Below, piece after piece: positions 22,041 to 56,437 of a stretch of DNA of 64,000 bases. Numbering within the stretch: position 1 is the stretch's first letter; each line of letters starts with the position of its first letter. Source of the stretch: Auricularia sp. M13 (taxonomy: Eukaryota; Basidiomycota; Agaricomycetes; Auriculariales; Auriculariaceae); contig CM073195.1 in NCBI GenBank assembly GCA_037042915.1, positions 3,472,001-3,536,000 of the forward strand, written 5' to 3'. The notes under the pieces are model-generated. The model was given only the letters and a program-made list of their open reading frames with translations, was not told where the DNA came from and did no database searches. Position numbers and translations under genes: made by a program.

Positions 22041-22711
22041 GCGCCGAGTCTCTCTTCGTCTTGCGGGAGTCATTAAATACATCCCAGAGAGACTGTCGAT
22101 ATACACACGGAGTCGGATGACGCGTGGGCGGGGAAGCGTTCGGTGAGGTTATTATGAGCATCAATTCTTCAGACGCTTACGAGCCCGATTCCGTTCGTAG
22201 TTTGCGCCTGTCTAAGCTCTCAGCGGCATTCCCGTATGCAAATACAAAAGTAGGGCTCGTGCTGCGAATTTTCGCTGAAGAGGAAGAGGAAGCGGCCGTG
22301 TTGCGTGCGCGTCATTCATTATGCCTTCCCGCACACTCACAGGGCGCCCATAATTGGAGAGGAATCATAGATATATCCATGGAATACAAAGAAACTTATT
22401 GGCATATATTGGGAACAAGGCATCATTTGGTGACAGGACGCATACATCCGGTTCGCACTACAGCGAGGCTTCGGTCGGCTGCGTGTAAATCGTGAGAACT
22501 GAGCGCTTGAGCAACTGAATCGGATCTCCTGATACCCGGTTCTCAAGCACACTTCTACATGCACTGTGGTGACTGTGATTGTTCTGCAGGAGTATTCGTG
22601 AAGGATGGATGCTGTAGGTGACACTGGCTCGGCGAGATGCTGGCTCGCAGGCAAATCAAACCCTGCAACCAATAGATGCACATGACGGGGTGATTGTAAA
22701 GCGTGCATAAC
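22041..22711. other. Intergenic, nothing recognised
   Basis: No domain, intron chain or repeat boundary is evident in this stretch, which lies between the last ordinary gene and the mobile-element region. Confidence 0.45.
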
Positions 22712-22860
22712 TGTCACAGTGACTGCTATATCACTCTCCGAGACGACGCTCGAGGGGAAGGGATGAGTGGAGAGGGAGGCGCGGATAAGCGGTATGATAG
22801 ACCAGACCAAACCTAAGGTACAAGAGGGGGCTCCGGCCCAGGTATATATCCGTATTGTTA
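22712..22860 (-). repeat. Diverged LTR remnant of the same family as the 23.7-kb element
   Basis: Read on the minus strand, this matches the promoter-to-end part of the intact LTRs nearby: a TATATA site, then TAGGTTTGGTCTGG, then ACCGCTTnTCCG, ending in GTGACA. The match is clear but far less than the identity of the two intact LTRs, so it is an older copy. Its upstream limit could not be fixed. It is a fossil piece without coding content. Confidence 0.55.
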
Positions 22861-23589: not shown

Positions 23590-26500
23590 ATGACTTCCTT
23601 CCTGTTGGCTGGCTATCTCGCAGTGTCAGGTGGCCGGCACATTGCTTCGGAGAACGCGTCTACGCATAAGACGACTCACCACGTCTTTTACGACACTGTT
23701 ATCCAGACGTGCGGACTCGACTTAACGGCAGAGATAAGGCACTTGTTGCGGTCATCACGGCCGTCGCAAGCTCTGTCCGCTTGCCCGCGGGTTTTACGCC
23801 GCTTCGCCGAGCGTTCGGTCGCTGCTGCATACAGTCGGCGCACTGTTTACCCTCGGACGGAGACTCGGCCAGAGTTATACACCTCGGGCTGTTCAACTCG
23901 GGATATGATCTGCACGCCGCTCTCTACCTACCTAGGGGGTGAGACGACCTCGGTGCATACCCCAATTCGGCTCGGTGGAGGCTTCTCACCTTCGGACCAA
24001 TGTTCGGCAGCTCCCCCCTCGCTGTATGCGTCGGATATGGGCGTTGTGGTGCTCGGGGCAGGCTCCAGAACCCCTTTGGACCTCGGGCGGACTCGGTGGG
24101 TCACCCTGGGCAACCTCGGAGGGTCGGAAACGCCTCTATTGGACCTCTCGTCGGTACGGTACCCCTCGGATGGATAGTAGGTCGGTTATCATCACCTGGT
24201 ACAAGCTCGGCTACATCCTCGGACCCTCGGCCCGTGGCTTCAACAGCTCGGCGCTCTCCCCGTGTACTCGGGAGGTGCCCTCCTTCTCGGTCCGTGCACT
24301 CGGTGGGTGTGTGTATGTGTGGCATACCTCGGCACCTTCGCCCTGTCTCGGACCCTGTTCGACTGGAGGTGTGGTAGAGTGCTAGCACTATGGGAGACGA
24401 TGGTGGATGGACCCTTTAGCTCCGGGATCACCATGGACCGGATCAGTGGACCTTGGGGATGGGTATATAGGTTGTGGGGTGTAGATGCGTGTACCCTAGG
24501 TTTGGTCTGGTCAATTGTACCGCTTGTCCGTTCTTCCTCGTCCTTCTCTCCTCTCTTGGGCGTCGGTCTCGGCGAGTGACGAGCGCTCTGCCGTGACATA
24601 AGACCAAACCTTCACTCCCTTTCGACCGACGCTCATCCCTCTTCTCCTTCCCCACACGGCCGCGGCGTCCTTTCGACTACTATCGCCCGTGTGTCACGCC
24701 GACGACCTCATCAGGCCGGCCTCGCCGTCAGCTAGCCGCTGTGCACCGGCCGAGGCCCATTGGCACCCGCATCCTTCTCCCTCGGAGTCGCCACCCACAC
24801 CGAGAAGCGAGGCGTACGCTGCCAAGGCCCTATCTCCACCCCATCGGCCGCAGCGCATGACCAAGCCCTTGGCACAGCCTCTCCACACGGTCGCGTGGGA
24901 TACCCCGATCCCGCCCCGGCGACCCCTGGTGCAGCACCTCCTTCGCACCCTCTACCCCGGCGAGTAAACCGAGACACTCGCCCACGCCCAAAACCCCGCC
25001 CCGGTTGTCTGGACTTGCGCGCTCAAGCCACAGCTGTTACACCTCTCCCTCTCGCACGCCATCGGCAGATGGGGCCTCGGCCGTGATCCGGATGGACTGG
25101 ATGCACGCGCCGCCACGCCCGAGATATGAATATCCTCGTCCCGAGGACGTCCACGAACCACCGGCCGCTGGCTGAACGACATGTACGACGTTTAACGATG
25201 TCCCGGGCTCGTGCCGAGGCTCCAATGACCAGTAACTTCGTTCGCTGCGCGGGATCACAGTCGCCGAGGGCGATTCTCACACGCTCTTTATTTCCCTCAT
25301 CATTTACTGGTCGGTGCGCAGGCGCAGCCGGACCGACAGGACACAGTACAGGACTGGAATCCAACCTCTCTCGGACCTTGGACTCGGCTGCAGGATGCTT
25401 GGGTCGGAAGATGCCACGCCAGGATGGACACGCCGAAGACTGGAACCAAACTCTCGGACCCACAGGAAGGAGTCCACTCGGTTTGGCGCTTGTTCGGACC
25501 CCCACGTCGATCACAGGTTCAGGAAGACTATTTATATTCTATACACGCGCCCATTGCGACAAGAAAACTATATACAAGACGGCCGACCCGAAACATCTAA
25601 TCCATGTCCATCGCCTCCTCCACCTCCTCCAGATCATCCTCCTCCTCCTCCTCCTCCGGACCCGACTCAGGTGGCGCGGATGCGCGCGAGGAGGCCGCCC
25701 CAGGTGTCACGGAGGAGCGCGATGACCGGGTAGCCGTACCCGCTACGAAGCGAGTGCCCCGACGCATCGCCGAGCGCAAAGGCGCCGGCGCCGACGGCTG
25801 CGCATTCGCGGCCGCACCCCCAGTGACCAGCGCCCACGCCGCCGCAAACTGGCCCATGAAGTTGGGGTGCAGTGCGGGCGCTGCGACCCCAAGCTCGCCC
25901 GGCGCCTCAATGGGCAGCGCCGGCAAGCTCTCCTTCGCGGCCCGGGATCTCGACGCACGGGACGACGACGAGGCGGGCGCCTGGGAGGTGACGGACGCGG
26001 CGCGGGAACGAGACGGCGGCGCACGCGTGCCCGACATCGGCGCCTTGGAACCCTTCCCGGTCTTGGTCCCGAATCCGAGTGGCGCGCGCAGGTCCTTCCA
26101 CGAGCATTTCACCTTCCGGCGCGAGCACTCGAGGCACGCCGCCAGCCCCTGCGCCGGAAGGCACTCGTCGTCGCGGTCCACGCATCGGCTGCATGGCTGC
26201 TGAATGTTAATACCCCGAGACCAGCAGCAGCAGAACGAAGTGCTCACCGACGTCGGGACCCCGTGGCGGTCGATCAGGCCGTCGGCAAACGCATTGTCCC
26301 ACGCCTGACGCCGCTCGCGCAGTGCCGGGCGCTCGTACACACCGGGCGGGGGAGTCCTCGGCCTACGCGGGTGGTGGAGAAGAGCCGACGCTGGCGGAGC
26401 AGACGCAGGCGGCGCGCGGACAGCAGACGACGAGCGCGGCGGACGAGGCGTTGGCGCCGAGCGCGCAGGAGGAGGCGGCCCCGATGGTCGCGACGATGAC

Positions 26501-28967
26501 GGTGCCGGTGCAGGACGGCGCGGCCTCGGAGCAACAGCGGACGGTGACGGCGCAAGCTCCTCGCACTCAGCATACAGCGGGTGCCCCGGCGGAACCTTCA
26601 ACGTCGAGCAGCGCGGGCGGAACGGAGCGTCAGAAGGTAGCGGCGGCAGACGCAACGCCAGTGGTCGGACCGGGTCAGACGGCGACGGCGACACGGTCAT
26701 AGACGGCAGAAGCAGGGCATCCGACGGCGGACGAGCACGCGGCCAGACTATCGGCCAGGACGCGGGCGGATGGCAGCAGCGCGAGCAGCAGGCGGCGCTC
26801 CGTCTCGAACTCGAGCTGACGGTGGCGGGCAAAGTCGCGGTGCGCGGACGGGATGCCAGGGTCGACGAGGGCGGCGACGATGCGATTCACGGCGTCGCCG
26901 AGCACGACGACACGGGCCTCCAGATCCTCGGGCCGGGCGCGAAAGGACAAAGTCCCCCAACACGGGCACCCAGGCGGGCCCCGCTGTTGGGCTGGTCGTC
27001 GCGGACGTGGTCAACGCGGTCAGGCGCGGGCATGGTGGTGGTATGAGGACAAGAAGCAAAACGACAGGCCGAAGCTTTATGTCAAACCGCGAATTGAATG
27101 GCCATTCAGTCCGCGGCGCCCTCGGCCCGTCATTTCGCCCTCCCCGCCTTGCGCCTCCCTCCCTCGGACGCTCCCTCGGCTCGCGGCTTGAAGGGGGGGT
27201 TATGTTGCGGTCATCACGGCCGTCGCAAGCTCTGTCCGCTTGCCCGCGGGTTTTACGCCGCTTCGCCGAGCGTTCGGTCGCTGCTGCATACAGTCGGCGC
27301 ACTGTTTACCCTCGGACGGAGACTCGGCCAGAGTTATACACCTCGGGCTGTTCAACTCGGGATATGATCTGCACGCCGCTCTCTACCTACCTAGGGGTGA
27401 GACGACCTCGGTGCATACCCCAATTCGGCTCGGTGGAGGCTTCTCACCTTCGGACCAATGTTCGGCAGCTCCCCCTCGCTGTATGCGTCGGATATGGGCG
27501 TTGTGGTGCTCGGGGCAGGCTCCAGAACCCCTTTGGACCTCGGGCGGACTCGGTGGGTCACCCTGGGCAACCTCGGAGGGTCGGAAACGCCTCTATTGGA
27601 CCTCTCGTCGGTACGGTACCCCTCGGATGGATAGTAGGTCGGTTATCATCACCTGGTACAAGCTCGGCTACATCCTCGGACCCTCGGCCCGTGGCTTCAA
27701 CAGCTCGGCGCTCTCCCCGTGTACTCGGGAGGTGCCCTCCTTCTCGGTCCGTGCACTCGGTGGGTGTGTGTATGTGTGGCATACCTCGGCACCTTCGCCC
27801 TGTCTCGGACCCTGTTCGACTGGAGGTGTGGTAGAGTGCTAGCACTATGGGAGACGATGGTGGATGGACCCTTTAGCTCCGGGATCACCATGGACCGGAT
27901 CAGTGGACCTTGGGGATGGGTATATAGGTTGTGGGGTGTAGATGCGTGTACCCTAGGTTTGGTCTGGTCAATTGTACCGCTTGTCCGTTCTTCCTCGTCC
28001 TTCTCTCCTCTCTTGGGCGTCGGTCTCGGCGAGTGACGAGCGCTCTGCCGTGACAGCACTGGGCTCCGAACAATGATGCGCTGCTACCTGACGGTACAAT
28101 CGTCGACATTCTCGCGAAGGTTTACGCGCCTCCCAAGGGCGGTGTTCAACTAGATGCCATCCACATCATCCCCTTTCCCGGTGATGCCGATTCTTCCACC
28201 TATGAGGACCACATTCCGCAGCGCGCCTTCCCCACCCTGATCGTACTCGGTCACATGGCTGCTAGCGCGGAAATTATGGACGATGGTATCTCTGTTGGTT
28301 ATCAGTTGCAAGCTTCCGATTACGTGCGCGATCAATCGCGATCGTCGCGCGTGTAGTGAGTCCGCATCTTGATCGTGTAAACGTCGGTTGACTTCCCTGC
28401 TGCAGTTGTCGTTTCGACGGTAATAAGCCACGTTGGAAGAAGACGCCTCGTCCACCGTCTGGAACCGGCGTCTTTGTCGTCGGTACTGCGTTTGGGGTTT
28501 ATGAGCCGGAAGAACATATCATGGTCGATGTTGAGCACGTCCAGCTTAACGTCGGTTCCAGGCCGGCCTCTGTCCCCGCCGCACGGGTTGAAGCTGGAGG
28601 CCCTCCCGCCAAACGTCGTCGCTTCCCTATGACTCCAGCATCCGCCAACGCGCCATCGTGAGTCAAAAACTGTTTCTGTGCGCGCTGTATGCGCTGTAAT
28701 TCAATTCCGCTTCAGTTCTAGCCGCGAAATCAACCCGTTTGCGAACGCTTCTGTTCCCGAGGAGACAGTGGAGGAAGATGCGGCCAGTCCGGCCGCTCCA
28801 GTGTACGTCTGTGGCATGTTAACAGCGTTCATGCCGTATTTCTGATTTCCACTTAGTAATCCGGAGGAGGCTACGAAGTCTAAGAGGGCGGCAGCCGGTT
28901 GCCGTACCATACGCGGTGCTGTTGCGACGGCGCGTCGCAATGAGAACGGCAACGCCGAAGAGTAGAT
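23590..28967 (+). CDS. Helitron cargo gene 1: OB-fold-like protein, split by an LTR element
   Basis: The first part (23590-23743) begins MTSFLLAGYLAVSGG. Coding resumes in the same frame immediately after the target duplication of the LTR insertion at 28,056-28,060. The second part reads DALLPDGTIVDILAKVYAPP, FPTLIVLGHMA, SDYVRD and VYCRFDGNKPRWKKTP, then a basic tail (AKRRRFPMTP) and a terminus ending NENGNAEE. The beta-rich blocks with RWKKTP recall a group of Agaricomycete proteins with single-strand-binding, OB-fold-like appearance; that is inference. Introns are visible near 28,356-28,404, 28,659-28,716 and 28,803-28,858. Downstream blocks carry no stop, so it was probably functional until the insertion. 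Confidence 0.6.
23744..24598 (+). repeat. 5' LTR of the non-autonomous element
   Basis: It has TG...CA ends. A TATATA lies in the U3 part near 24,464, after a stretch where CTCGG recurs very often. Confidence 0.88.
24599..25596. other. Interior leader of the non-autonomous LTR element
   Basis: About 1 kb downstream of the 5' LTR without a recognised reading frame. No gag-like capsid or zinc-knuckle motif was found. Confidence 0.45.
25597..26832 (-). CDS. Antisense Zn2Cys6-cluster ORF inside the non-autonomous LTR element
   Basis: This 411-codon frame runs opposite to the element. A Pro/Ala/Ser-rich N-terminal half leads to a cysteine cluster starting CSRCVDRDDEC with spacing C-x2-C-x6-C-x8-C-x2-C-x6-C, which fits the fungal GAL4-type Zn2Cys6 consensus. 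A GT-AG stretch with a TTAAC branch site lies directly before the cluster (about 26,252-26,202) and may be an intron. The protein ends in an acidic tail (PEEEEEEDDLEEVEEA). The Zn2Cys6 domain normally binds DNA, so a regulatory or chromatin role is possible. It lacks the fungal transcription-factor middle domain. Confidence 0.55.
   Translation of the reverse strand: MPATVSSSSRRSAACCSRCCHPPASWPIVWPRARPPSDALLLPSMTVSPSPSDPVRPLALRLPPLPSDAPFRPRCSTLKVPPGHPLYAECEELAPSPSAVAPRPRRPAPAPSSSRPSGPPPPARSAPTPRPPRSSSAVRAPPASAPPASALLHHPRRPRTPPPGVYERPALRERRQAWDNAFADGLIDRHGVPTSVSTSFCCCWSRGINIQQPCSRCVDRDDECLPAQGLAACLECSRRKVKCSWKDLRAPLGFGTKTGKGSKAPMSGTRAPPSRSRAASVTSQAPASSSSRASRSRAAKESLPALPIEAPGELGVAAPALHPNFMGQFAAAWALVTGGAAANAQPSAPAPLRSAMRRGTRFVAGTATRSSRSSVTPGAASSRASAPPESGPEEEEEEDDLEEVEEAMDMD
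27203..28055 (+). repeat. 3' LTR of the non-autonomous element
   Basis: Nearly identical to the 5' LTR and followed directly by the target duplication GCACT. Confidence 0.88.
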
Positions 28968-29148
28968 TATGAATGTGGACCCTGCTTTCGCGTTCCCGAG
29001 TCCGTGTGTTTCATTTTTTGTGTTTTCATCCACTATCACTTTGTGTCGAGAAAGACGAAAACTCTCAAAAACATGTATGCTATCCTAATTCCCAGATGTT
29101 GGCTTGGTCTATGCCCTATAATTAATATGTTTCTGACGTGAATGATCA

Positions 29149-29156
29149 TGACGTCA
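29149..29156. promoter_or_regulatory. TGACGTCA site upstream of cargo gene 2
   Basis: A perfect CRE/ATF-type palindrome, 148 bp upstream of the ATG at 29297, with a half-matching TGACGTGA at 29134-29141. TATTTAA lies at 29233-29239. Confidence 0.5.
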
Positions 29157-29296
29157 TCGCCGCTTTTGTGTCCCGAGTATGTTCTGGTACATTCTAGATC
29201 TAGACCCGAATGTCACGATAAAAGGCGGCGGTTATTTAAGGCGGCTCTGCGAGCCAGAATTCCCCATTCACAAACGTCTGTGTTCGCCAGATTGTC

Positions 29297-29621
29297 ATGG
29301 ACGCTCTCGCGATGAAGGCTCTCTTGAGCCAGCATGGCTGTGTGATTTGTGAACGCAATGCAGATATGCTTCTTCTAAGCGTACGCGTAGGCGATGTGAG
29401 TTTATCACATCAAGTCATCTGTGTGAATAGGACATGTCCTTATATTCCATTAGGAGACCGTGGCTCGTATCAAAATCGCTACAAACGCAGACACGGAAGT
29501 TATTGGCCGCTTGATAACGTCCGCAATGGAAGATTCGGTGCCCTGTTTTTGTATCCTGCCTACTACAGTGTTCAGAACGCCTTGATGTGTTTTCTGCGTC
29601 GCGCGTCGCTCTACGCGTTGA
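29297..29621 (+). CDS. Helitron cargo gene 2: small protein of unknown function
   Basis: The first exon reads MDALAMKALLSQHGCVICER and ends with VRVGD at a GTGAGT donor. The second exon, after ATTAG at 29,451, reads ETVARIKIATNADTEVIGRL and ends FCVARRSTR. The total is about 96 residues. A C-x2-C pair (GCVICE) is present but no second pair, so a zinc finger is not supported. A TATA-like site and a TGACGTCA site upstream match the other genes of the array. I do not recognise a family. Confidence 0.45.
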
Positions 29622-29661
29622 TGTTAGTGTAATGACATAACCGTGCCTCTTTGCCTGTTTG

Positions 29662-29669
29662 TGACGTCA
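29662..29669. promoter_or_regulatory. TGACGTCA site upstream of cargo gene 3
   Basis: A second perfect CRE/ATF-type palindrome, in the spacer between cargo genes 2 and 3. Confidence 0.5.
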
Positions 29670-29984
29670 TGAACAGGGTGGCTGTGTTTGCACTTTCTTG
29701 GATGTCCGGATGCAGATCTCTTTAAATGCTGACTTTCTGCATGCCGCACCGCAACATCCCGCCATGGCCCCTCGCTTCCGTGGTGAGTGAAGGTGTTCTC
29801 CAGCCCGCTCATTGCACTCACATGATGCAGATTGTCCCTGCGTATTCTATCGCAGGCAAGCAAGTATCGTTCGTCGCGATAGCCTGCCTCCAGCCGACGT
29901 GTTCCCCCAGCGCGCAATGCATGTGCGCCTTCATCTGCTTCTCCAGTGTGGCGCGTAACTCACGGTAGCGCGCAGTGCTATGAC

Positions 29985-30302
29985 ATGGCGCGCTCGGCTG
30001 AGGCGTTCGAGGGGTTGCCGCTCGTCGACTGGCGTTGCATCAGGCATCCTCGATATCCCGCCAAGTGGATGAAACGCGCCCTTCGCGATGTTCCCTATCG
30101 AAACATAGTCTTTCGCCGTCTACATCGCCTTCGTCTCCAGCTCGACGCGCTGGAGTTCGACGTTCACTTGGAGCTGGCATGCTCAAAGCGGGCCAAGCAG
30201 TCTGCGCGCAAGCGTCGCGCTCATTTTGAGAAATGGATTGGGAAGTTGAATGGCTTTCTCGACAAAGTCGACAACGAGATGCGTACGATCGTTTCATGGT
30301 GA
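29985..30302 (+). CDS. Helitron cargo gene 3: small basic protein of unknown function
   Basis: The frame from ATG 29985 gives about 105 residues, strongly basic and helical (RRLHRLRLQLDALEFDVHLE, KRAKQSARKRRAHFEKWIG), ending in MRTIVSW. A short upstream exon starting at 29,763 (MAPRFR, GTGAGT donor) could precede it, so the true start is uncertain. Lys/Arg spacing suggests an amphipathic or nucleic-acid-binding helix bundle. No family is recognised. Confidence 0.42.
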   Translation: MARSAEAFEGLPLVDWRCIRHPRYPAKWMKRALRDVPYRNIVFRRLHRLRLQLDALEFDVHLELACSKRAKQSARKRRAHFEKWIGKLNGFLDKVDNEMRTIVSW

Positions 30303-30880
30303 TGGTCCACCGACGCACCGACTTCAACTGGTTTTCGAGTGTCTCTGTATCTCTGTATCTACAAGTATCCTTCGCGCGTGTAGCATTATTGTAATATCAC
30401 CACTTGATTGGCATTATGATACTTTGTGAATTATCGCTTTTTCCTGGCACATTCCCATGTTGGGAAGCCGTGTGAACCTCTTCCGAAGCCGCAGATCTTC
30501 GACGCGTGCGTCGTCATCAACTCCGTTGGCACCGACGCCAAAGTCGACTTCCCTCAGCATCCACCCCGCCGCGGCGACCTAGGGACAGTGCCCATGACGG
30601 CCATTCGCTGACGTCATGTTTTGCATTGGATGCAACCCAGTGATGAGATCCAGCTTTGAGTTTAACTGAAATATAATTCCGCCATGTCTGTGTGCGCGGT
30701 GTCCCACGTCATACTGTCACTTCGGAGTTACGGTCGCTTACGTCGGACGTAATTTGCTGATTACATAAACGTCATCCAATTTTGACCGAAGGACATTTTT
30801 CGTCAAGTCCAGCGTCATGCGCCGCTGCCAGCTTATCATGGTGTGCCCGTGTTCTCTATGATGGCATGACTTTGGCTGGG
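30303..30880. promoter_or_regulatory. Spacer with TGACGTCA site before cargo gene 4
   Basis: A perfect TGACGTCA lies at 30609-30616. No gene is recognised in these 580 bp; an open frame around 30,426-30,611 lacks any context. Confidence 0.45.
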
Positions 30881-30887
30881 TATAAAA
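30881..30887 (+). promoter_or_regulatory. TATA box of cargo gene 4
   Basis: TATAAAA ends 55 bp before the ATG at 30943. Confidence 0.6.
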
Positions 30888-30942
30888 CGGACATAGATGG
30901 TCTGGCGGGCGGCGTCTGTCGCACCTTGGTAGCTGTCGCATC

Positions 30943-32137
30943 ATGCCGGGCATTCTCTGCAACACGTACTTCAACGTCTTCAACCCGACTTACCACGGTC
31001 CCGAGCCTGGCACCAACGACGCATACCACACCTATCTTTCGAGTTTCACCATCGAACGTGAGTCTGTTAGCATCTCGCATGCTCCGCATAACGCTGACGG
31101 GGTTGCAGGCTCGCATTTTGCTTTCTCAATTGCCCAGCCGGTCGATGAGCACAACCGCGGCCCTCTTCCGCACGGTGCGGTTGCCGAGGTCTACGGTACC
31201 TTGAGCGTCGTCGGCAAAGTGTTGCTCGTGACAGCATTTACCACCACGGGTCTTTATGTCGCGACGACACCAACTACTCGCTGCTCTGTGGACACCGAGT
31301 TTGAGCCGACTCTATTCTTTGTTGGCAGAGTATCAGCTCTGGGCAAGCTCGACATCACCAAGCCTGGCGTTCGTTCCGTTGACATCGCTGTTGACTGCAA
31401 CGACACTTGGCCCGTGCAGACCACCGTCATCCGGTGATTTGGACATCGCTGAGCGCTTACTGTGCTCGCGCTGAATGCAGTGCCTCGCAGCTGCTTCTTC
31501 AATCGCGATGAGCAGCGCTTCCAGTCTCTGGGCAGCATGGCCGTTGGCTTGCCCCTGGACATTGTCGGTGTTCTCATGGGCTGGGTCGACGGCAAGCTGG
31601 CAGTCGATGTGCACCAAGTCCGCATTAGCTACGACGGGCCGGTGCCAGTCCTGCCACTCGTTGCCCTGCATAGCCCGTTCGCTGACCGCGACATTGTGGA
31701 CGACCACGCCATTTTCGATGATATAACGGTTCTTCCGAAACGCGTGGGGTCGCGCGTCCCCGATGCTTCGACGTCAGTGACCAGGTACGCCAGCAGCCGC
31801 ACCCTTCCTTACACCTCGGCTGACTTTGATGCAGACCTCATGTCGTCGACGAGTCTTGCATCCCCGGTGCTGATTCACTCGTTGAAGGGTGCGAGTTTCG
31901 TTGCATTCCGTGTTATTTCGCCTAATATTTGTTCAGGTGGCAGCCAGCTGACGGTGCGCAATCGGCCAGAGAGGAGCTCGCCATAGGCCGCGCTCGCCGC
32001 GCTCGGCCTTCGATGCAAACGGGAAGGCATGCTCAGCAGACACCTTTGAGCGCCCAGCTGCCGAAGATCGTGTACGTCTTCACAGTTGCTCTGCACATGC
32101 TGGTCTTCTCACCAATTGACGTCGCATAGCGTCGTGT
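30943..32137 (+). CDS. Helitron cargo gene 4: two-domain OB-fold-like protein
   Basis: The first exon reads MPGILCNTYFNVFNPTYHGP and SSFTIER. The second continues HFAFSIAQPVDEHNRGPLPH, VAEVYGTLSVVGKVLLVTAF and TLFFVGRVSALGKLDI. The third begins CFFNRDEQRFQSLGSMAVGL, then DIVGVLMGWVDGKLAVDVHQ. Two successive beta-rich blocks with G-x-V / G-x-L patterns resemble paired OB-folds as in single-strand DNA-binding proteins. The tail is basic and disordered (REELAIGRARRARPSMQTG). Four or five exons with GT-AG ends (junctions near 31,063/31,109, 31,434/31,491 and 31,783/31,937). Single-strand binding in support of Helitron replication is inference. Confidence 0.58.
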
Positions 32138-32231
32138 AGGTGTCAGATGCAGCAGAATTTTCATGACTTGAACGCGTTGCTCGAATGTAGTGTAGGCTTC
32201 GTTATCAGTGTCTGTATCGGTAGTATGAATG

Positions 32232-32239
32232 TGACGTCA
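32232..32239. promoter_or_regulatory. TGACGTCA site and TATA upstream of cargo gene 5
   Basis: A perfect palindrome 110 bp before the ATG at 32349. A near match, TGACGTGA, is at 32293-32300 and TATAAA at 32313-32318. Confidence 0.5.
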
Positions 32240-32348
32240 GGTTGTGTCCGTGTAATGCCATTTTTTTTTCTGAAAATGGGGGAGCGCTGTGGTGACGTGA
32301 TAGTGCCATCGATATAAAGACTTGAGGCGATGAGATTGCTGCGGCACT

Positions 32349-32851
32349 ATGTCGCTCGCCTTCAATGGAGTCCTTGCTCTTATGCGCCCGCGGTGTCGGT
32401 CTATACAGATGCCATGGGAAAGCTGAGTGGTAATCGAGGAAACTTATGATACTTTCATCGAGGGCGAATTACTATGCATACCGATAGAGGCGGTATTGGT
32501 GTGGATACCGGACGAGGCCACTGAGAACTGTGAATTCACATTCGCCAAAGGTCAGAATGTCCAAATCATAGGTCGTATTACAGTGTCTTTCCGTGGTTTG
32601 GCGACTATTCGGGCGTTGCACATTGAGCTCGCTGAGCCGTACACTCTCCGTAGCCGTCTTCTGTACCAACCATTGATAACTGGAATCGGTCTCGTAGTCG
32701 GGCAGGTTTGTCCTTGGTATGGGGGCCCCAATGGAATCAATGGTGTGACAGTCGATATTGCAGGCCAATTCAACGTGTTGTAAGCAATACCCCTCCATCT
32801 AGCCAATATTCAGTGACACGCTGCAGCTGTGTCGCAGACAACATGCCGAAT
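32349..32851 (+). CDS. Helitron cargo gene 5: beta-rich OB-fold-like protein
   Basis: The main block reads FIEGELLCIPIEAVLVWIPD, FAKGQNVQIIGRITVSFRGL and LITGIGLVVGQVCPWYGG, an alternating hydrophobic pattern that suits a single OB-fold or similar barrel. The short start MSLAFNGVLALMRP at 32349 needs an intron before the main block, while an ATG at 32427 opens that block directly. A final GT-AG intron (32,783-32,811) extends the C-terminus to the stop near 32,851. It resembles cargo genes 1 and 4 in texture but not in alignable motifs. Confidence 0.5.
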
Positions 32852-33340
32852 AGAACTCTATTGAGCTTGCGCTACGCCAGACCTCTATTCATATGCGGAC
32901 GGTGTATAGGATGGAACTACAATGAGTCGTGCATCGTTGTGCGCGTGCTGCACGTGGCGGCTGTAGCGCTCGAGTTGATTCACTGCCTGCCTCACTAGGG
33001 TCCCAATCCTAGCATGCCGTCATTTGCTCAAATTTTCGTGCCTTAGTTGTGTTCGGGGAACAGTAGAAATTATGTCATGCTCTAGGCTTCACGTGATGCA
33101 ATTACATCACGTGACGTGTTTTCTCAATGTAGCACAACTCCTATTTGTTCAGATATACCGCGTCGCAATGAGATCGGTCCAGAATGCGTGAAAATTGTGT
33201 CATGCTTGGCTTCCTCATCAGACACGTTATGTGCCTGACGTCGTTAGTTCCCATTATGGTGCCCAATTGCTGTATGTATACAACATGACGCATGGTGCCC
33301 AGTATATGACGCCATGGCACATCAGCCCATGGATTCTACC
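32852..33340. promoter_or_regulatory. Rep promoter region
   Basis: A 490-bp spacer with repeated TGACG cores: CACGTGACGTG near 33,108, TGACGTCG near 33,237 and ATGACG near 33,306. No gene is seen. Confidence 0.4.
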
Positions 33341-33346
33341 TATAAG
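33341..33346 (+). promoter_or_regulatory. TATA box of Helitron Rep gene
   Basis: TATAAG ends 38 bp before ATG 33385. Confidence 0.5.
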
Positions 33347-33384
33347 TACGCGGGAATGAGTGATTGTAAGCATTCTGCGTACCG

Positions 33385-34321
33385 ATGGATTCCCAGACCT
33401 GGAAAGTCGCTCAACTGAAGAAGAACACGCTGTGGTGGGGCATCAACAAGAACTCTAACATGCCGCATCTGTGTAAACATTGTGGGAAAGAGCTACTCAC
33501 CGGTGAAGCCTCCGGGTTTTGCTGTGGACCGTGGGGAGAGAAACTGCATGATGTTGCATCTTTGCCACCGCTCCCTGAAGAATTCAGCGCTTTCCTTTCC
33601 GATCCTCGTGTTTCCTCTCTCTCTAGACTTCTAAACCTCGTGTACACGTTTGCTCAGTTGGAGTCCTCACATCAGTTCCCAGAAATTGGTCAGGGTCCTG
33701 CGCATTTTGCTGTGGAGGGCAAGATTTTCCATCGCATTAGGCCTACGTTCCAGAATTCAGCAGTTCACTGGCTGCTATATGATGGATTTATGAGAGGACA
33801 AGAGCCACACGCGTCTGCAAATTGGTTCAGCAAGCTTCCAGCTACCTGGATTGAGGCACTCTCCGCTGCGCTGCTGCGCGTCAACCCATACGTACGACTC
33901 ATCAATGTCTTCCGACAAAGTCCAGAGAGCGATCTCCCCAACATCCACTTGCTCATTCGGGACGCTGGCGAGAACGAGATAGCTGGCATTATGTGTTTCG
34001 ACAACACAGTAGAATCCGATGCGAAAGTAGGTACATTTTGGCACATGCGTTTCGGCCTTACTGAGGCGAGTAGCTGAGATCAGTAATAATCTCAAAGAAA
34101 CGTCGTCCAGCGCCGGGCTTTGTGGATTCCATCGACGAGACATCGTCCAATGTGCATTATATTTCGGCGGTGAACCGCTTCTGGGAGCCACTCGTGTATC
34201 CGCTGTTCTTCCCTCATGGGACTTTGGGTTGGGGAAGGGCCTCAGCTGCAGACAACAGGCTTGCCGCCGCAGACGACGGTCAGGACGTGATGACGAGCCA
34301 GATCTGGCATTGCTGCGCACG
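33385..34321 (+). pseudogene. Helitron Rep/helicase, 5' part
   Basis: The product starts MDSQTWKVAQLKKNTLWWGI and carries the conserved Helitron N-terminal zinc-ribbon block (LCKHCGKELLTGEASGFCCG), then LPPLPEEF, GKIFHRIRPTF, VHWLLYDGF and, after an intron at about 34,030-34,072, ISAVNRFWEPLVYPLFFPHG. This is the N-terminal region of the protein that nicks and unwinds DNA for rolling-circle transposition. The frame is open to the point where a Ty3/gypsy element is inserted (34,322) and resumes in the same frame beyond it, so the insertion interrupts an otherwise good gene. Confidence 0.82.
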
Positions 34322-35042
34322 TGTTAAGCCTGCTGTGCCTTGGGGTTTGGTTGCAAGGATAGTCGAACGTCCGGGCGCAGAGAACACTCGAACGAACAAC
34401 TAGAGCCTTCGGTGCGTTATTGAGCACACCGGCTACGTCGAGTAGCACGACCGAAGGGACCGCGAGCAGCAGAGGACTCAGACGAGTAAGTCGGGCGAGG
34501 GAAGAACCCAGAGGCGAAGTCGAGAGAGAGAGATAGAGTGTGCGAGGGGCACGACTATGTCGATTTCGTAACTGGGGAGCTAGATACAAAGTCGAGGGTC
34601 TTTTATACCTGGGGAGGTGATCCGATGTACTCGGAGTGTATCCTAGAGACGAAGGAGAGGGGGCCTCAGATCAATAGAGATCGTCGTCATCGGCCGATAG
34701 GATGAGTAAGAGCAAGTGGGTAAGGTATCGGGGGATCGGGCGAATGACGAGAGGCGAATGACTAAGACGAATGGAGCGAACCGGATATGAACACTATCGA
34801 TACAGTAGGGACAAGGCGAGTTAGGTGGATGTATGCGAGTAAGGAGAGAAGCTAGAGAAGTGAGGGAGAGGTCTAGAGGTAGAGGACGACGAGGAGAACA
34901 TATCCGAGCATATGAACACGAGGGAGATAAGCCGGGTATTCGGGAGCTTGACCGAGTTGACCGAGTTGGCCGAGTGACGTAGAATGACGCCGAGTGATGC
35001 CGAGAGCACGTGAGGTCCGCGGACCGGGGCACGGGCGTAACA
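34322..35042 (-). repeat. 3' LTR of chromovirus A
   Basis: Same family as 42,216-42,940 and 43,966-44,690. Confidence 0.92.
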
Positions 35043-35240
35043 GTATCCCCCCTTTACGTCCTGAGCCCACGAAGGACTGCAGCAACGCAAGGTGAATACA
35101 AAAAAATGAGATAGCACGCACTCGAGTCCGAATGGGGCCAAAAGATCGGGTCGGGTCGGAACGGGTCGGGCACAGATTAAAAGTGGTTGGGTCGGGAGTT
35201 GAATCGTCGAACCACTCTTGTCTTCTGCCCGCCGCCCACC

Positions 35241-36474
35241 ATGCCGCGATACGAATCGCTCGAGGACGTCGCCGCCGCGTACGACCGCAAGACCGTCGGC
35301 GCCGTCATGAGGTCGCTCGAGGACGACCCGACGATGGAGGCGCTGATCGCGGCGCACGAGGACGCGAAGCGGACGCTCGGCGGCCTGCAGCAAGAGGCCG
35401 TCGACGAGGAGGACCTCGACGCGATCGAGGCGTTCAGCGCGCGCAGGCGCCAGGCGAAGGCCGAGCTGCGCCTGGCGGCGCAGCGACGCTTCTGGCCGAG
35501 CGCGTGGCCAAGATTGCGGTGGACGCGGGCGCCAAGGCGACGAAGAGCCAGGCGTCGCCGGCGAAAGCGCCGACCACGAGCACGAAGGCGCCGGCGAAGG
35601 ACGCGAGGGAGACCGAGTCGCCGCCGAAGAGGCGGAAGGCCATGGAGGTATGGGTCGAGTTACCTCGACTGCGCGATCTGGCTAAGGTGCGCTTTTGTTT
35701 TTTAGGTCGATGTCGCGAAGACGGCTCAGGCGCCGCGCAAGGTCGCGCCGAAACCCGCGCCGGTCGCGGTCGCTCGCTCGCCGTCGCTCGGGGCGGGCGA
35801 GACGCTCGAGGACAACGACGAGGTCGAGGAGATCGCGAGCCCGGTGGCGCCGGCCGCGAAGCCCAAGCCCAAGCCCAAGCCGCGCGCAGGCGGCAAGTTC
35901 ACGGACAGGTGGCCGGAGGTGCCGTACGGGACGCGGTTCCCGAGCCAGGTAAGTTTTCGGTCGTTCGTGTTTTGCTCGCCGGGGCTGACATCGAGCAGTG
36001 CGAGGCCTGCGCCAAGCGCGGCGGCCAGTGCGTTCGGCAGCACCGGTCGAACACTTGCACCGCGTGTCATCAGACCCGGGGCAAGTGTACGCACTCGGGC
36101 AAGCCGTTCGTGCCGCGCGGCGAGAAGAGGGCGGCGTCGCCGAGTGCGTCGCCCGAGCGCCCCAAGAAGGTGCGCATCGTCGAGGGGACGACGCTGGGGA
36201 TGAGGGCGGCCGAGGACCGCGCGAAGACGGCCGAGCACCGCAGGGTCGTGGAGAACCACGCCCTGTGGACGAACAATTCGGTGCACAACATCGAGCGGAT
36301 GTTGTACCGGATGCTGCAGTGGCAAGCGCAGCAGTTTGGCCAGTCGATCGACGAGTCGATCGACGATCCGTTCACGAGCGAGGAGGAAGAGGAGGCCGAG
36401 GAGGAGGTCGAGGAGGAGTCCGAGGAGGAGGACGAGGAAGCGGTCGAGGAAGCGACCGAGGACGCGGACGAGTA
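35241..36474 (+). CDS. Antisense Zn2Cys6-cluster ORF inside chromovirus A
   Basis: It runs opposite to gag-pol, between pol and the 3' LTR. The start MPRYESLEDVAAAYDRKTVG has a good fungal context (CCCACCATG). Charged and Pro/Lys-rich segments lead to a cysteine cluster beginning CEACAKRGGQC with spacing C-x2-C-x6-C-x8-C-x2-C-x6-C, identical to the antisense ORF of the non-autonomous LTR element. A canonical GTAAGT...CAG intron (35,950-35,998) lies directly before the cluster, and another near 35,648-35,705. The protein ends in a long acidic tail. This copy does not look whole. The domain suggests DNA or chromatin binding; the benefit to the element is unknown. Confidence 0.55.
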
Positions 36475-36596
36475 GGCGATAGGGTAGAGTAGTAGCGGGT
36501 GCGACCAAAGTCGCCCAAAATGTAATAAATGACTGTTTCTTGGAATCGGGTGAAAAGCGAGTGAGCGAAGAAATAGCGAGTGAAAAAAGCGAGTGC

Positions 36597-39500
36597 TTAG
36601 ATGTTTTCGAATTTCTTGAGGATTTGCTGGAACTCTTGATAACTGCCGGGAGCGCTGGGATTTGCAGCATAGAAGTCTTGAACTGCTTCTTGCGCGTGTT
36701 CGAGATTTTCGGAGCCCATCTTGGTGGTCTCGGGGTCGTCGGGAGTGCCGATGTGACCGATCCAGCGAATGCGAAAACGAAGGCGCGAGTGACGATGGCG
36801 ATTGTCGATGCGTACGCTGAGTACTTCGAGCTCGTACTCTTGCTCGCCGTCGACGACGACGGGCGGAGGAGGTTCTTGACGTTGACCGGGGAACGCTTCT
36901 CGAGGGTGGGGTTCGAGTTGCGAGACGTGAAAGACCGGGTGTACGCGAGCGAGGTAGTCGGGTAGGCTGAGGGTGAACGATTGCGAGCTAGGTTGATCGA
37001 CGATCGGGAACGGGCCTAGGTAGCGATCGGCGAGTTTGCGGGTGGGCTGCGTCGTCTTGATGTGTTCTGAGAGGACGTAGGCCATGTCGCCGACCTTGAA
37101 GTCAGGCGGGGGAGTGCGTCGAGCATTCGCAGATGCAGTGTAACGTTTCTGAGCGGCAGCGATCTGCTCCTTCAGGACGTCCTGCAGTTCGTGGATGTCG
37201 ACAGCGAAGTCGCGGGCGCGAGCAGAGGCAACGTCGCGCTCGGGGTAGACGGAGATGTTCGGATGAAAACCCTTGTTGGCGAAGAAAGGCGAGACACCAG
37301 TCGAGTCGTTCGGGGTGTTGTTGTACGTGAATTCGGCGAGAGGGAGTAGCTCGGACCAGTTGTCCTGCTTGTAGTTGCAGTAGAGACGGAGGTACTGCTC
37401 GAGCGTCTGGTTCGTGCGTTCGACTTGACCGTTCGCCTCCGGGTGGTGACCCGAGGTGAAGTGCATGGTCATGTTGAGGAGCGAGCCGAGTGCGCGAAAG
37501 AAGCGGGAGACGAATTCGGAGCCGCGGTCGGTAGAGACGTGCGAGGGAGCGCCATGTTTGGCGAAGACATGGATGAGGAAGAGACGCGCGAGTTCTTCGG
37601 AGGTGATCTTGCCCTTGGTCGGGACGAAGATACCCTGCTTCGAGAGGCGATCAATAATGACGAGGATCGCGGTGTAACCGTTGGACTCAGGGAGTTGTTC
37701 GATGAAGTCCATCGAGATCGAGTCCCAGTTGCGAAGCGGAATCGGGAGCGGTTGAAGTCGACCGTACGGCTTGTGTCGTCGAGGTTTGCTGCGCCCACAG
37801 GTGACGCAGGCCTGGACGTAGGTACGAATCGAGTCGCGCAGGTCGGGCCAGTAGTACTCGCGGGCGACCATCTTGAGTGTCTTGTTCTGACCCGGATGGC
37901 CAGCGAGCGGGTGATCGTGCTTTTCGCGAAGGATACGAAGGCGACAATCGAGAGCGTTCGGTACGTAGATCCTGCCCTTGAACAGCAAGAATCCATCGTC
38001 CGAGGCTGACCAGTTGATCGCGTCATCGGTGCCGAGTTTCGAGCGAATGTCGAGCGAGTTCGTCCGAGTCGTACGAGGCGCGAATGTCATCCCGAATGGA
38101 CTGAGTGTCCATGATCGTGGCTGCGCGAAGGAAAGTCTCTTCAGCATACGTCGCGCGAAGGGAAGCGGCGAACTGTTCCGAAGTAAAAACGGGTCGGAAG
38201 TTCTGCGGGTTTGCGCTGGCGTAGCCACCATCCCCCTTTTGAGATAGACGTCGTGGCGGCGAGTGAGAGCATCGGGTTTGCCGCCGAGTCGACCGGGTCG
38301 AAAGCGAATGAGGAGGTTGAAGGTAGAAAGGTACTCGGACCAGCGAGCTTGCCGACGAGTGAGCATCTTCGTGGTAGAGAAATACTCGAGGTTCTTGTGG
38401 TCCGTGACGACGTCTATTGGGGTCTCGGCCCCTTCGAGGTAGTGTCGCCATAGTTCAAACGCCTCGAATATCGCGAGTAGCTCCTTGTCGTGCGTGTCGT
38501 AGTTGAGCTCGGTGGGAGTGAGCGTGCGCGAATGGAAAGCGACGGGGTGAACAGAGCCGTCCAGGAGGACGTGCGAGAAGATCGCCGCGATCGCGTAGTC
38601 GGAAGCGTCAGTCTCGACGACGCGAGGGAGAGCGGGATCGAAGTGGTGAAGGACGGGAGCGCAAGTGAACGCCTTCTTGAGCTCGTTGAACGCAGCGAGG
38701 CATTGCGGAGTGAAGTTCCACGTTGCGGTCTTTCGAGTGAGACGAGTGAGCGGGACGACGATATCGGAGTAATCGTAGATGAATCGTCGATAGAAGTTCG
38801 CGAAGCCGAGGAACGACTGGATGTCGCGAACGTTGCGAGGAACGGGCCATTCGAGGAGGGTGGCAATCTTCTTCGGGTCCATGCTGATGCCCTCGGGGCT
38901 GATGATGTACCCGAGGTACTCGATGGTGTCAGCATGGAACTCGCACTTCTCGGGCTTACAGAAGAGGTCATTCTCCCGCAGCCGTCGAAGGACCTCTCGA
39001 ACGTGTTCCTCATGCTTCGAGGGATCGTCTGAGTAGATGAGGATGTCGTCGAGGTAGACGGTGACCGTGACGTCGAGGAGGTCGGAGAAGATGTCGTTCA
39101 TGAAGCGCTGGAAAGCGGCTGGAGCGTTCGTGAGACCGAAAGGCATGACGAGATACTCGTAGGTGCCGTAGCGCGTTCGAAAGGCAGTCTTCCACTCGTC
39201 GCCGGCCGCGATGCGAACGTTGCTGTATCCGACACGAAGATCGAGCTTGGTGAACTTCTTGGCGGTGCGAAGGCGGTCGAGCGTGGACGAGATGAGCGGG
39301 AGCGGGTACTTGTCCTTCCGAGTGATCTTGTTGAGCCCACGATAATCGACGCATAGGCGAAGAGAACCGTCGGCCTTCTTGACGAAGAGAACCGGGGCGC
39401 CACCGGGGACGACGAAGAGCGAATGTGTCCTTTGCTGAGGTTATCCTGAATGTACTCCCGAAGCGCGAGTTGCTCGGGCTCGGAGAGCGAGTAGATCGGA

Positions 39501-42215: not shown

Positions 42216-42940
42216 TGTTAAGCCTGCTGTGCCTTGGGGGGTTTGGTTGCAAGGATAGTCGAACGTCCGGGCGCAGAGAACACTCGAACGAACAACTAGA
42301 GCCTTCGGTGCGTTATTGAGCACACCGGCTACGTCGAGTAGCACGACCAAAGGGACCACGAGCAACGGAGGACTCAGACGAGTAAGTCGGGCGAGGGAAG
42401 AACCCAGAGGCGAAGTCGAGAGAGAGAGATAGAGTGTGCGAGGGGCACGACTATGTCGATTTCGTAACTGGGGAGCTAGATACAAAGTCGAGGGTCTTTT
42501 ATACCTGGGGAGGTGATCCGATGTATTCGGAGTGTATCCTAGAGATGAAGGAGAGGGGGCCTCAGATCAATAGAGATCGTCGTCATCGGCCGATAGGATG
42601 AGTAAGAGCGAGTGGGTAAGGTATCGGGGGATCGGGCGAATGACGAGAGGCGAATGACTAAGACGAATGGAGCGAACCGGATATGAACACTATCGATACA
42701 GTAGGGACAAGGCGAGTTAGGTGGATGTATGCGAGTAAGGAGAGAAGCTAGAGAAGTGAGGGAGAGGTCTAGAGGTAGAGGACGACGAGGAGAACATATC
42801 CCGAGCATATGAACACGAGGGGAGATAAGCCGGGTATTCGGGAGCTTGACCGAGTTGACCGAGTTGGCCGAGTGACGTAGAATGACGCCGAGTGATGCCG
42901 AGAGCACGTGAGGTCCGCGGACCGGGGCACGGGCATAACA
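42216..42940 (-). repeat. 5' LTR of chromovirus A
   Basis: 725 bp, followed by the target duplication GCACG. It matches the LTR at 43,966-44,690 almost base for base in inverted orientation. Confidence 0.92.
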
Positions 42941-43965
42941 GCACGTTTGTTACGCGAAGAAAGGTTTTCCATTTTTGGAAGACTGACCAATGAATACGTC
43001 GTTGATATGTTCACGCGCAATATTGAGTCGCGACTCGCGTACATTCGTTTTAGCCAAGCTGCAGCGCACCGCGAAGACACGGCATTGATGGGATTGGAAG
43101 CCCCGATGGACTCTGAAAACGTTTTTCTTCCGTCTTCATTCCTCGGTTCCAACGCTTGGTGTTCGGACCAGATCACGGACGCGCTCACCATTGCTGCCAA
43201 CTGCGGCGTACCGACATTCTTTGTCACAATGACCTGCAATCCGGACTGACCAGAAGTGCGCCAGAAGCTGCGGCCAGGCCAGGGCTGGCAAGATGTTCCG
43301 CTCGTGATCGCCCGCGTGTTCAAGCAGAAGCTGGGCGTCTTGATGAAGACTTTGAAGACTATGTTTCCGCACACTGGTGGTATAGTAAGCTTGCGCTTTG
43401 TCGTGCTTAGTTTGGCGTGCCTAATTGCGCGCAGGTTTATTGACTGTCTGCCGTTGAGTTTCAGAAGCGAGGATTCCCTCACTGTCATATCCTAATCAAA
43501 TATGAATGGGATTGCATTACTGCCTCGGACATTGATGCGGTGGTCTCTGCGGAGATGCCCAAAAGTGCAGCTGACGCTGCATTGGTTCAGCGTTTCATGA
43601 CGCACAAACATCCCGTGCAGCGCGATGACCCCAGCAAAGTCACCATACCGAAATACTGTCAGCGACGAGCGCGCGTGTTTGATGCCCACGGTACGGAGGC
43701 TGACACAGTCTGCCACTTCGGATATCCCAAACCGATTCGTGAGACCACCTCGCTGTCCTTCGACGGACACCCACAGTACAGGCAACGTCAAGCAGAAGAT
43801 AGCAATGTCGTTCCGCACTGTTTGCCCCTTCTGCGAGCCCTCGACTGCCATATCAACTTCGAGGTCGCCAACTCGTCGCACATCTTTCAATACCTATTCA
43901 AGTACATACGAAAAGGTAAGCCTTTGTCGTCTTTGGTGCCTGGGATACATCGTTGAAGATGCCTC
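42941..43965 (+). pseudogene. Helitron Rep, HUH-domain part
   Basis: Coding resumes after the chromovirus with RFSIFGRLTNEYVVDMFTRN, then VFLPSSFLGSNAWCSDQITD, PTFFVTMTCNPD, and after an intron VEFQKRGFPHCHILIKYEWD and VVPHCLPLLRALDCHINFEV. The metal-binding HUH motif (HCH, 43480-43488) is intact. Two in-frame TGA codons are present, at 43247-43249 (family has Trp) and 43441-43443, so this copy no longer makes full-length Rep. The helicase domain and catalytic tyrosines would lie further on and are absent, cut off by the second gypsy copy. Confidence 0.8.
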
Positions 43966-44690
43966 TGTTACGCCCGTGCCCCGGTCCGCGGACCCCACGT
44001 GCTCTCGGCATCACTCGGCGTCATTCTACGTCACTCGGCCAACTCGGTCAACTCGGTCAAGCTCCCGAATACCCGGCTTATCTCCCCTCGTGTTCATATG
44101 CTCGGGATATGTTCTCCTCGTCGTCCTCTACCTCTAGACCTCTCCCTCACTTCTCTAGCTTCTCTCCTTACTCGCATACATCCACCTAACTCGCCTTGTC
44201 CCTACTGTATCGATAGTGTTCATATCCGGTTCGCTCCATTCGTCTTAGTCATTCGCCTCTCGTCATTCGCCCGATCCCCCGATACCTTACCCACTCGCTC
44301 TTACTCATCCTATCGGCCGATGACGACGATCTCTATTGATCTGAGGCCCCCTCTCCTTCATCTCTAGGATACACTCCGAGTACATCGGATCACCTCCCCA
44401 GGTATAAAAGACCCTCGACTTTGTATCTAGCTCCCCAGTTACGAAATCGACATAGTCGTGCCCCTCGCACACTCTATCTCTCTCTCTCGACTTCGCCTCT
44501 GGGTTCTTCCCTCGCCCGACTTACTCGTCTGAGTCCTCCGTTGCTCGTGGTCCCTTTGGTCGTGCTACTCGACGTAGCCGGTGTGCTCAATAACGCACCG
44601 AAGGCTCTAGTTGTTCGTTCGAGTGTTCTCTGCGCCCGGACGTTCGACTATCCTTGCAACCAAACCCCCCAAGGCACAGCAGGCTTAACA
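43966..44690 (+). repeat. 5' LTR of chromovirus B
   Basis: 725 bp, TG...CA ends, same length as the 5' LTR of copy A and differing from it at only a few positions. Confidence 0.92.
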
Positions 44691-44722
44691 GTATTTCGTA
44701 ACTCGAGCTCTGCTCGAGTTGT

Positions 44723-46194: not shown

Positions 46195-46225
<31 letters not shown>

Positions 46226-50282: not shown

Positions 50283-50452
50283 TGAGGGCGGCTCGGGGAC
50301 TCGTCGGCCTCGGTCGGGAAGAAGACGAAGACAAAGTGGATTCGGATGCAAACACGGACTCGGGCCCTACACACTGGGCCCGCACTCTACAGTCACCGGA
50401 CCTATCCCTCGGACCTACTCTCCTATCCCCTACTGCTCCCGAGCCGCCCACA
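50283..50452 (-). repeat. 3' LTR of gypsy element C
   Basis: 170 bp, with an 11-bp terminal inverted repeat (GGGCGGCTCGG / CCGAGCCGCCC). Confidence 0.85.
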
Positions 50453-50503
50453 GGTGCCCCCCCTATGGTGTGCCCCTCCTGGGCGCATCACACCCCAAAA
50501 AAC

Positions 50504-54772: not shown

Positions 54773-54816
54773 GGCGCGCGCGTATGAGCGAACAGGAGGA
54801 GGCGGCGCGTGCTCAT

Positions 54817-56148: not shown

Positions 56149-56267
56149 GCCGGTGTTGTTATTGAAAAAGGACCTATGCTGCGCGCCAATCTGCGCAGCT
56201 GGGGTGATGTACCGTCGGTCGGCCAGAGTGGATGACCGTGAACCCGGATCTCGTAGTGATCACCACG

Positions 56268-56437
56268 TGAGGGCGGCTCGGGGACTCGTCGGCCTCGGTC
56301 GGGAAGAAGACGAAGACAAAGTGGATTCGGATGCAAACACGGACTCGGGCCCTACACACTGGGCCCGCACTCTACAGTCACCGGACCTATCCCTCGGACC
56401 TACTCTCCTATCCCCTACTGCTCCCGAGCCGCCCACA
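56268..56437 (-). repeat. 5' LTR of gypsy element C
   Basis: Same 170-bp sequence as the 3' LTR; the hAT MITE end resumes immediately after it. Confidence 0.85.

Follow-up and report, generated by a model that had tools for sequence, protein, structure and literature searches.

A selected antisense gene with a six-cysteine cluster in several LTR retrotransposon families of Auricularia sp. M13

We analysed a 64-kb stretch of the Auricularia sp. M13 genome (contig CM073195.1, positions 3,472,001 to 3,536,000; hereafter the window, in whose coordinates positions are given) together with the 52.1 Mb, in 14 contigs, of the same genome. Within the window, a chromovirus (A) and a non-autonomous element (NA), both long terminal repeat (LTR) elements, each carry an open reading frame (ORF) that runs opposite to its own element, adjoins the polypurine tract (PPT) and 3' LTR, and encodes six cysteines in identical spacing. 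This antisense ORF is a coding gene under purifying selection in A, in NA and in a further family, B. Its product is probably zinc-binding and probably nuclear, and as a working hypothesis from sequence comparison we take the cluster to be Zn2Cys6-like, probably with its two halves swapped.

The exact motif C-x2-C-x6-C-x8-C-x2-C-x6-C lies at 26193-26104 (-) and 35999-36088 (+), and both ORFs were found where a preliminary description of this DNA had placed them, on the strand opposite to the element and before the 3' LTR. Even a loosened motif matched only these two sites in all six frames of the window, and 60 order-1 Markov sequences resembling the window gave no exact and 0.017 loose matches per 64 kb. 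The NA gene starts at an ATG at 27033, further up than the ORF start first described. The two genes are built as follows, with selection given as dN/dS or pN/pS (ratios of non-synonymous to synonymous substitutions and differences, respectively).

26248..27033, - strand: NA exon 1, from an alignment of 7 representatives; the window copy has frame breaks, and intact copies lie elsewhere in the genome
26197..26247, - strand: NA intron, 51 nucleotides, phase 0, GTGAGC..CAG with a branch-like TRAC; the Cys-cluster exon follows directly
25597..26196, - strand: NA exon 2, with the PC-SRC..KVKC cluster (26193-26104), a linker and a Glu/Asp-rich C terminus; dN/dS 0.18
35241..35647, + strand: A exon 1, from the ATG at 35241; two parts with pN/pS 0.38 and 0.48; in the window copy the frame shifts partway through
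35648..35705, + strand: proposed and uncertain first intron of A, GTATGG..AG; length differences between copies would shift the frame if it were unspliced
35706..35948, + strand: A exon 2, with no stops; pN/pS 0.62
35949..35998, + strand: A intron before the Cys cluster, 50 nucleotides, GTRAGT..CTGAC..AG, phase 0; GT, CTGAC and AG are kept in the 21 rows shown
35999..36475, + strand: A exon 3, with the CEAC..TRGKC cluster (35999-36088), a predicted helix, an acidic tail and the stop; pN/pS 0.19

Purifying selection, to which the preliminary description had looked as a touchstone, is evident at codon level within this genome. The ratios pool pairwise counts, which are not independent events, and are Jukes-Cantor corrected for NA (dN/dS) and uncorrected for A and B (pN/pS). 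Across 7 NA representatives (21 pairs; L027 and L028, aligned over the 3' end of the gene only, were excluded), exon 2 has dN 0.069 and dS 0.379 with no stops, and the cluster alone has a dN/dS of 0.11. The other five frames of this exon give 0.31-2.57 with stops, 0.31 being the mirror frame. Exon 1 gives 0.18 (26499-26248), 0.42 (26886-26500) and 0.66 (27034-26887), as computed in the frame of the window, which is broken there. The intron keeps its sites while its interior drifts (dN 0.58, dS 0.85), and together with a 37-nucleotide downstream flank it is far more diverged than exon 2. A six-frame pN/pS scan of the whole NA interior (9 rows) found no other gene; the antisense frame gave 0.25-0.46 in windows starting from 25560 to 26760, and the mirror sense frame was weaker throughout the gene (0.31-0.59), with stops in most windows. 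A exon 3 stands at 0.19 against 0.45-2.00 in the other five frames (21 rows, 1 of them with a stop), and the family B gene at 0.34 overall and 0.20 in the cluster (12 rows). Since the strongest constraint falls in the frame of the antisense ORF in NA exon 2, A exon 3 and B, we count it in favour of a real gene, and these six-frame tests led us to reject a spurious frame. In the proposed first intron of A one frame is stop-free at pN/pS 0.32; between 35648 and 35686 the differences are mostly synonymous, as if this part were sometimes translated.

The gene is also a regular part of its elements, as the preliminary description had expected of other copies. Genome searches returned 36 rows matching the NA ORF (70-100% identical), 42 matching the A ORF and 41 for family B, fragments counting as rows. 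The antisense exon lies beside the end of A pol, on the opposite strand, in 38 of 40 scored copies (two of the 38 being remnants of 26 and 50 amino acids); these 40, out of 66 candidate pol-end copies, were chosen independently of the ORF. For NA, the ORF adjoins all 32 leader copies longer than 600 nucleotides; three shorter leader rows were excluded, one of them without an adjacent ORF row.

As the preliminary description had proposed, an intron stands directly before the cluster (A 35949-35998, NA 26247-26197), 0 or 1 residue ahead of the first cysteine and in phase 0 in both, and its signals are kept across copies: GTRAGT..CTGAC..AG over 50 nucleotides in A and GTRAGY..TRAC..CAG over 51-52 in NA (52 in two copies). 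A further family, D, has GTAAGT..CTGAC..TAG directly before its cluster exon, and because the acceptor carries a stop codon in the frame of that exon, translation would end there if the intron were unspliced. We regard the predicted intron signals as firm in A, NA and D. The sequence before the cluster of L057, one of two single-copy genes with the domain, holds no such signal. An intron can persist in an RNA-mobile element if it is not spliced from the sense RNA, which fits an antisense gene.

The preliminary description had called the LTRs of A and NA different, and blastn of A 34300-36600 against NA indeed finds no LTR match, only three 40-49-nucleotide matches, all in Glu-rich tail codons; its view of an old shared architecture and not a recent copy is supported. 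Family B, reached via weak matches (L058, L059; L060, L062, L063, L077 and L078 were dropped for want of a cluster), is represented by a 4.2-kb element (L058) with 98% identical LTRs and the target-site duplication (TSD) GGTCG; there the antisense gene lies next to the 3' LTR. Early in the interior of this element (L058:3-1037, +) is a sense ORF encoding a chromodomain (Pfam E 6e-9); tblastn found no match to A gag, A pol or the pol of another gypsy element of the window (C), and neither gag nor pol was detected. The gene occupies the slot between pol and 3' LTR in A, and in NA and B it lies by the 3' LTR with no pol found. LTR ends, primer-binding site (PBS) region and PPT are common to B and NA, so these two may use the same helper. 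About 2 kb from the B element lies an A-type LTR (L074:4112-4836; 94-95% identical).

Family D (L075) occurs at four places in the genome, beside a long open pol with reverse transcriptase (RT), RNase H, integrase and Chromo domains. Its domain series from RVT_1 to Chromo (Chromo 30.3 bits against a Pfam cut-off of 25.1) is that of a chromovirus; for A, Pfam reports all of these domains but Chromo. The D pol is 72% identical to A pol over 932 amino acids and its gag-like frame 38% over 338. On the strand opposite to pol, the antisense gene of D ends about 320 nucleotides past the pol stop (LTRs were not located). Its cluster has only 6 of 28 non-cysteine residues in common with that of A, a far greater divergence than that of pol. 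Of the two single-copy genes, L061 is closest to A (E 0.003) and L057 to NA (E 7e-4). The acidic C-terminal tail noted at the outset is present in A and NA and recurs in L061, but it is not a general trait, since D ends basic.

The Gal4-type domain is a binuclear zinc fold binding CGG-type DNA sites, with a Zn_clus spacing range of C-x2-C-x6-C-x5-12-C-x2-C-x6-8-C. Assignment of the cluster to this consensus in the preliminary description stands for spacing, x8 between the halves in A and NA and x10 in B being inside the range; D has x13, outside it, and the first half of L057 contains x8. Membership does not follow. The curated cut-off of Pfam PF00172 (Zn_clus) is 21 bits, and NA reaches 17.2, B 7.9 and L057 17.6, with no score for A, D and L061; L057 scores higher for zf-ANAPC11 (19.8 bits, E 8e-4), also below cut-off. 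The Zn_clus model finds 35 places above cut-off in this genome, none of which is one of these genes.

The likeness that exists is mostly to swapped halves. Zn_clus positions 1/2-14 align, below threshold, to the second half of the cluster in NA (E 0.006), L057 (0.004) and B (4.4). At E values of 10 or below, a family profile compared with 177,635 distinct PDB sequences matched five entries, all of them Zn2Cys6 regulators and including LAC9, LEU3 and PUT3 (best E 0.44, none significant alone); in four of the five the second half of the cluster lay on the first half in the chain, and the remaining match, LEU3 (2erg), lay further along, at chain residues 21-51. With half-profiles made from 11 and 9 canonical halves, which leave-one-out tests separate cleanly, the swap score was equalled or exceeded in 68 of 5000 shuffles for NA and 35 of 5000 for B; A (1273/5000) and D (1530/5000) point in the same direction without significance, and L061 shows no swap. 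On this comparison the swapped order appears clear in NA and B and weak in A and D. Score and the order of the halves both led us to reject canonical Gal4 membership, Gal4 having its basic half first.

Residues between the fixed cysteines suggest kinship among most of the families (p values uncorrected for many tests): A-B 0.0002, B-NA 0.009, D-NA 0.005, D-A 0.007 and D-B 0.037, and, with the single-copy genes, B-L061 0.002, NA-L057 0.002, NA-L061 0.006 and L061-L057 0.016. The pairs A-L061 (0.054), A-L057, B-L057, D-L061 and D-L057 were not significant. Three canonical domains were mutually alike, and of their 15 pairings with A, B, NA, L061 and L057 only NA-L053 fell below 0.05 (0.025).

What the gene does is best put as a proposal to which we give about an even chance: an element-encoded nuclear protein, likely with a two-zinc cluster, that regulates LTR transcription of its own element. 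The accessory gene, lying opposite to gag-pol between the pol end and the 3' LTR, would have a promoter of its own next to the PPT and 3' LTR and be transcribed towards pol. Its intron would outlast retrotransposition, since splicing and reverse transcription act on opposite strands. The product would be a nuclear protein with helical stretches (a structure model predicts a helix at residues 65-112 of A exon 3), charged tails and a six-cysteine cluster most likely holding two zinc ions, and it would most likely bind DNA, whether of the LTR or of host chromatin, raising or timing transcription of the carrier element. NA and B would retain the gene because it benefits the copy that carries it while an element is still new to a nucleus or rare there. 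What we infer here is that the gene is expressed, that its product binds zinc and DNA and resides in the nucleus, that it regulates the element, and why it is retained. In its favour we count that A and NA share the intron point and phase 0 and that the D intron lies directly before the cluster exon. Also in its favour are the codon-level constraint, the constant place and strand in A and NA copies, the likeness of the A-B, B-NA, D-NA and D-A clusters, the Zn2Cys6 matches in the PDB, and the plant precedents GENE23 and TRP28. The preliminary description had also suggested help for non-autonomous relatives, which does not fit NA in any simple way, as the gene is already present in NA itself.

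Several results weigh against this proposal. Constraint on A exon 2 is weak, and the acidic tail, missing in D, is not universal. Similar intron signals occur in B (69 nucleotides) and L061, but there the length keeps the frame, and the intron-like stretch of B has a pN/pS of 0.29, which leaves splicing in these two unproven. Of 26 NA copies examined, exon 1 was open and in frame in 8 and the gene was open through both exons to the tail in 5, so 21 are broken or not shown open (one copy, L009, was unmatched by the splice pattern used for this check); in the window, exon 1 is broken in NA as well as in A. The A-NA likeness between cysteines is by itself not significant (p 0.13). AlphaFold models of the single window sequences fold neither cluster with confidence (predicted local confidence, pLDDT, about 43-46 over the A cluster and 54.6 on average for the NA model). 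Searches for relatives outside this genome found none in IMG/VR (cluster alignment, A pol, B protein) or in GTDB contigs (NA protein), which are viral or prokaryotic collections with little bearing on fungi.

A broader form of the regulatory proposal can be offered only tentatively. It would have a family of element-encoded DNA-binding proteins built on a half-swapped Zn2Cys6-like cluster, a natural circular permutation, encoded antisense and with an intron. Autonomous chromoviruses would carry such a gene, and so would non-autonomous LTR elements that have no other; each of the latter would spread by supplying its own regulator while taking every enzyme from elsewhere, with selection maintaining this selfish-regulator lifestyle.

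Among other readings, a post-transcriptional role on element RNA, cDNA or the pre-integration complex, as chaperone, nuclear-import or target-site factor, seems unlikely to us. Basic stretches after the cluster would suit it, the neighbouring sense chromodomain ORF of B makes a chromatin-targeting pair conceivable, and accessory nuclear roles have been proposed for plant antisense ORFs (PMC7264820); however, an antisense, intron-bearing and separately transcribed gene would be odd for a particle component, and the sub-threshold likeness is to halves of DNA-binding transcription factors. We think it rather improbable that the protein counters silencing at element copies, whether by heterochromatin, DNA methylation or small RNA from convergent transcripts. 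The convergent tail-to-tail layout could yield double-stranded RNA, and the gene persists in each of the 8 NA representatives examined, all recent insertions by the 99.2-99.9% identity of their LTR pairs, but Pfam shows no domain pointing to the silencing machinery.

Several captures from a host fungal Cys-cluster family, with the common placing partly due to convergence, would account for the two single-copy genes and for the lack of significant A-NA likeness beyond the cysteines. This is improbable, as strand, slot and intron point are identical in A, NA and D, the A-B, B-NA, D-A and D-NA pairs are alike at p <0.01, and domestication of element genes could explain the single-copy genes just as well. 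We dismiss as very improbable that the ORF is just a side effect of GC-rich codon bias, the antisense RNA or the DNA alone being what counts: long frames do overlap on both strands of this GC-rich window and the NA mirror frame is itself constrained, but it is constrained more weakly than the antisense frame, which stands out in NA exon 2, A exon 3 and B, and the introns drift, so this reading is already contradicted.

The remaining features of the two elements are these. NA occupies 23744-28055 of the + strand, with the TSD GCACT just outside; A lies on the - strand from 42941 to about 34322, its pol ending about 120 nucleotides from the stop of the antisense gene in a tail-to-tail arrangement.

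23744..24598, + strand: NA 5' LTR, 99.77% identical to 27203-28055 over 855 nucleotides
24599..25560, + strand: NA leader, with the PBS region and an apparently non-coding interior (six-frame pN/pS windows, 9 rows)
27191..27199, + strand: NA PPT, read from the sequence; PPT and LTR start are near-identical in family B
27203..28055, + strand: NA 3' LTR, starting after the PPT and pairing with the 5' LTR
about 34322..35043, - strand: A 3' LTR, 98.3% identical to 42216-42941; TSD CGTGC
36597..39440, - strand: A pol, with RT, RNase H, integrase and a Tf2-type SH3 domain (Pfam)
42216..42941, - strand: A 5' LTR, pairing with 34322-35043

The NA leader is 95-98% conserved from 24600 to 25080 without a consistent coding frame in the same scan; between subfamilies 24599-25080 is 95-98% identical, and parts of the ORF region only near 79%. 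The conserved leader is a candidate packaging or priming signal, or a candidate sign of template switching. NA copies stand in head-to-tail rows at G000 C3:2500918-2512596 and C11:2666049-2677839, spaced mostly about 3.46 kb apart (once 4.3 kb), as if adjacent copies shared LTRs. A truncated second A copy (43965-49013, +) lies inverted about 1 kb from the first, with arms mostly 98-100% identical, and stops short of the antisense gene. Element C (50283-56437, -) is a different gypsy element with identical 170-nucleotide LTRs and a 1456-amino-acid pol frame; a motif scan of the window found no antisense Cys-cluster motif in it, and only about 50 nucleotides separate its pol frame (50504) from its LTR (50452). 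An LTR fragment at 22711-22849 (-) is 95% identical to the family B LTR.

What antisense accessory genes do in LTR retrotransposons has yet to be established (PMC7264820). The present case offers a recognisable domain type, codon-level selection and an intron that eases detection of the transcript in RNA data, and since the gene stands alone in non-autonomous elements its effect can be tested without gag-pol. Titles and abstract openings among the best literature matches do not describe a zinc-cluster antisense ORF in LTR elements, and a word search found the word antisense absent from the main text of PMC3248453 and PMC3411680. Additional ORFs are on record for rotifer elements and for the class in general, in the excerpts of PMC5408684 and PMC8220671.

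Compared with known systems, the cluster resembles PF00172 proteins (Gal4, Put3, Leu3, Lac9) in having C-x2-C-x6-C twice and basic residues in one half; unlike them it stays below the cut-off, and its basic half comes second in NA and B and weakly so in A and D. If true, the swapped order would widen the definition of Zn2Cys6 and explain why the standard model misses these genes. HBZ of human T-cell leukaemia virus type 1 (HTLV-1) is a bZIP protein, a domain unrelated to ours; the comparison is by layout only. Like the present gene it is antisense, and in the excerpt of PMC11963269 it is nuclear and critical in the virus life cycle.

Closest in layout are the plant Ty3/gypsy aORF-3R, antisense ORFs between pol and 3' LTR that passages of PMC7264820 and PMC11963269 list for Grande (GENE23), RIRE2, Retand (ORF4/TRP28) and PvRetro13. 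There, GENE23 of Grande is nuclear and reported to have its own promoter, TRP28 of Retand is predicted to bind DNA, and some elements are non-autonomous (PMC11963269). The A gene shares with them the antisense strand to gag-pol, the slot from pol to 3' LTR, retention in most copies, protein-like conservation and a suspected nuclear or DNA-binding accessory product. Going by the descriptions in those passages, the plant proteins are of other types (TRP28, SMC domain), with no Cys cluster mentioned; the present gene is set apart by its intron and by its occurrence in non-autonomous elements as well, being the sole gene found in NA. Among fungi, brtn of Boty/BcGypsy1 is reportedly due to Zhao et al. 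2011. It too is an additional antisense gene in a gypsy element, from the ascomycete Botrytis, and the parts of the citing papers that treat it (PMC7264820, PMC8365987) give no zinc-cluster description, by which we set it apart. The novelty first claimed for an antisense ORF in mushroom elements therefore narrows: antisense accessory ORFs are already known from plant elements and from Boty, and it is the zinc-cluster type of protein that did not appear among the best literature matches.

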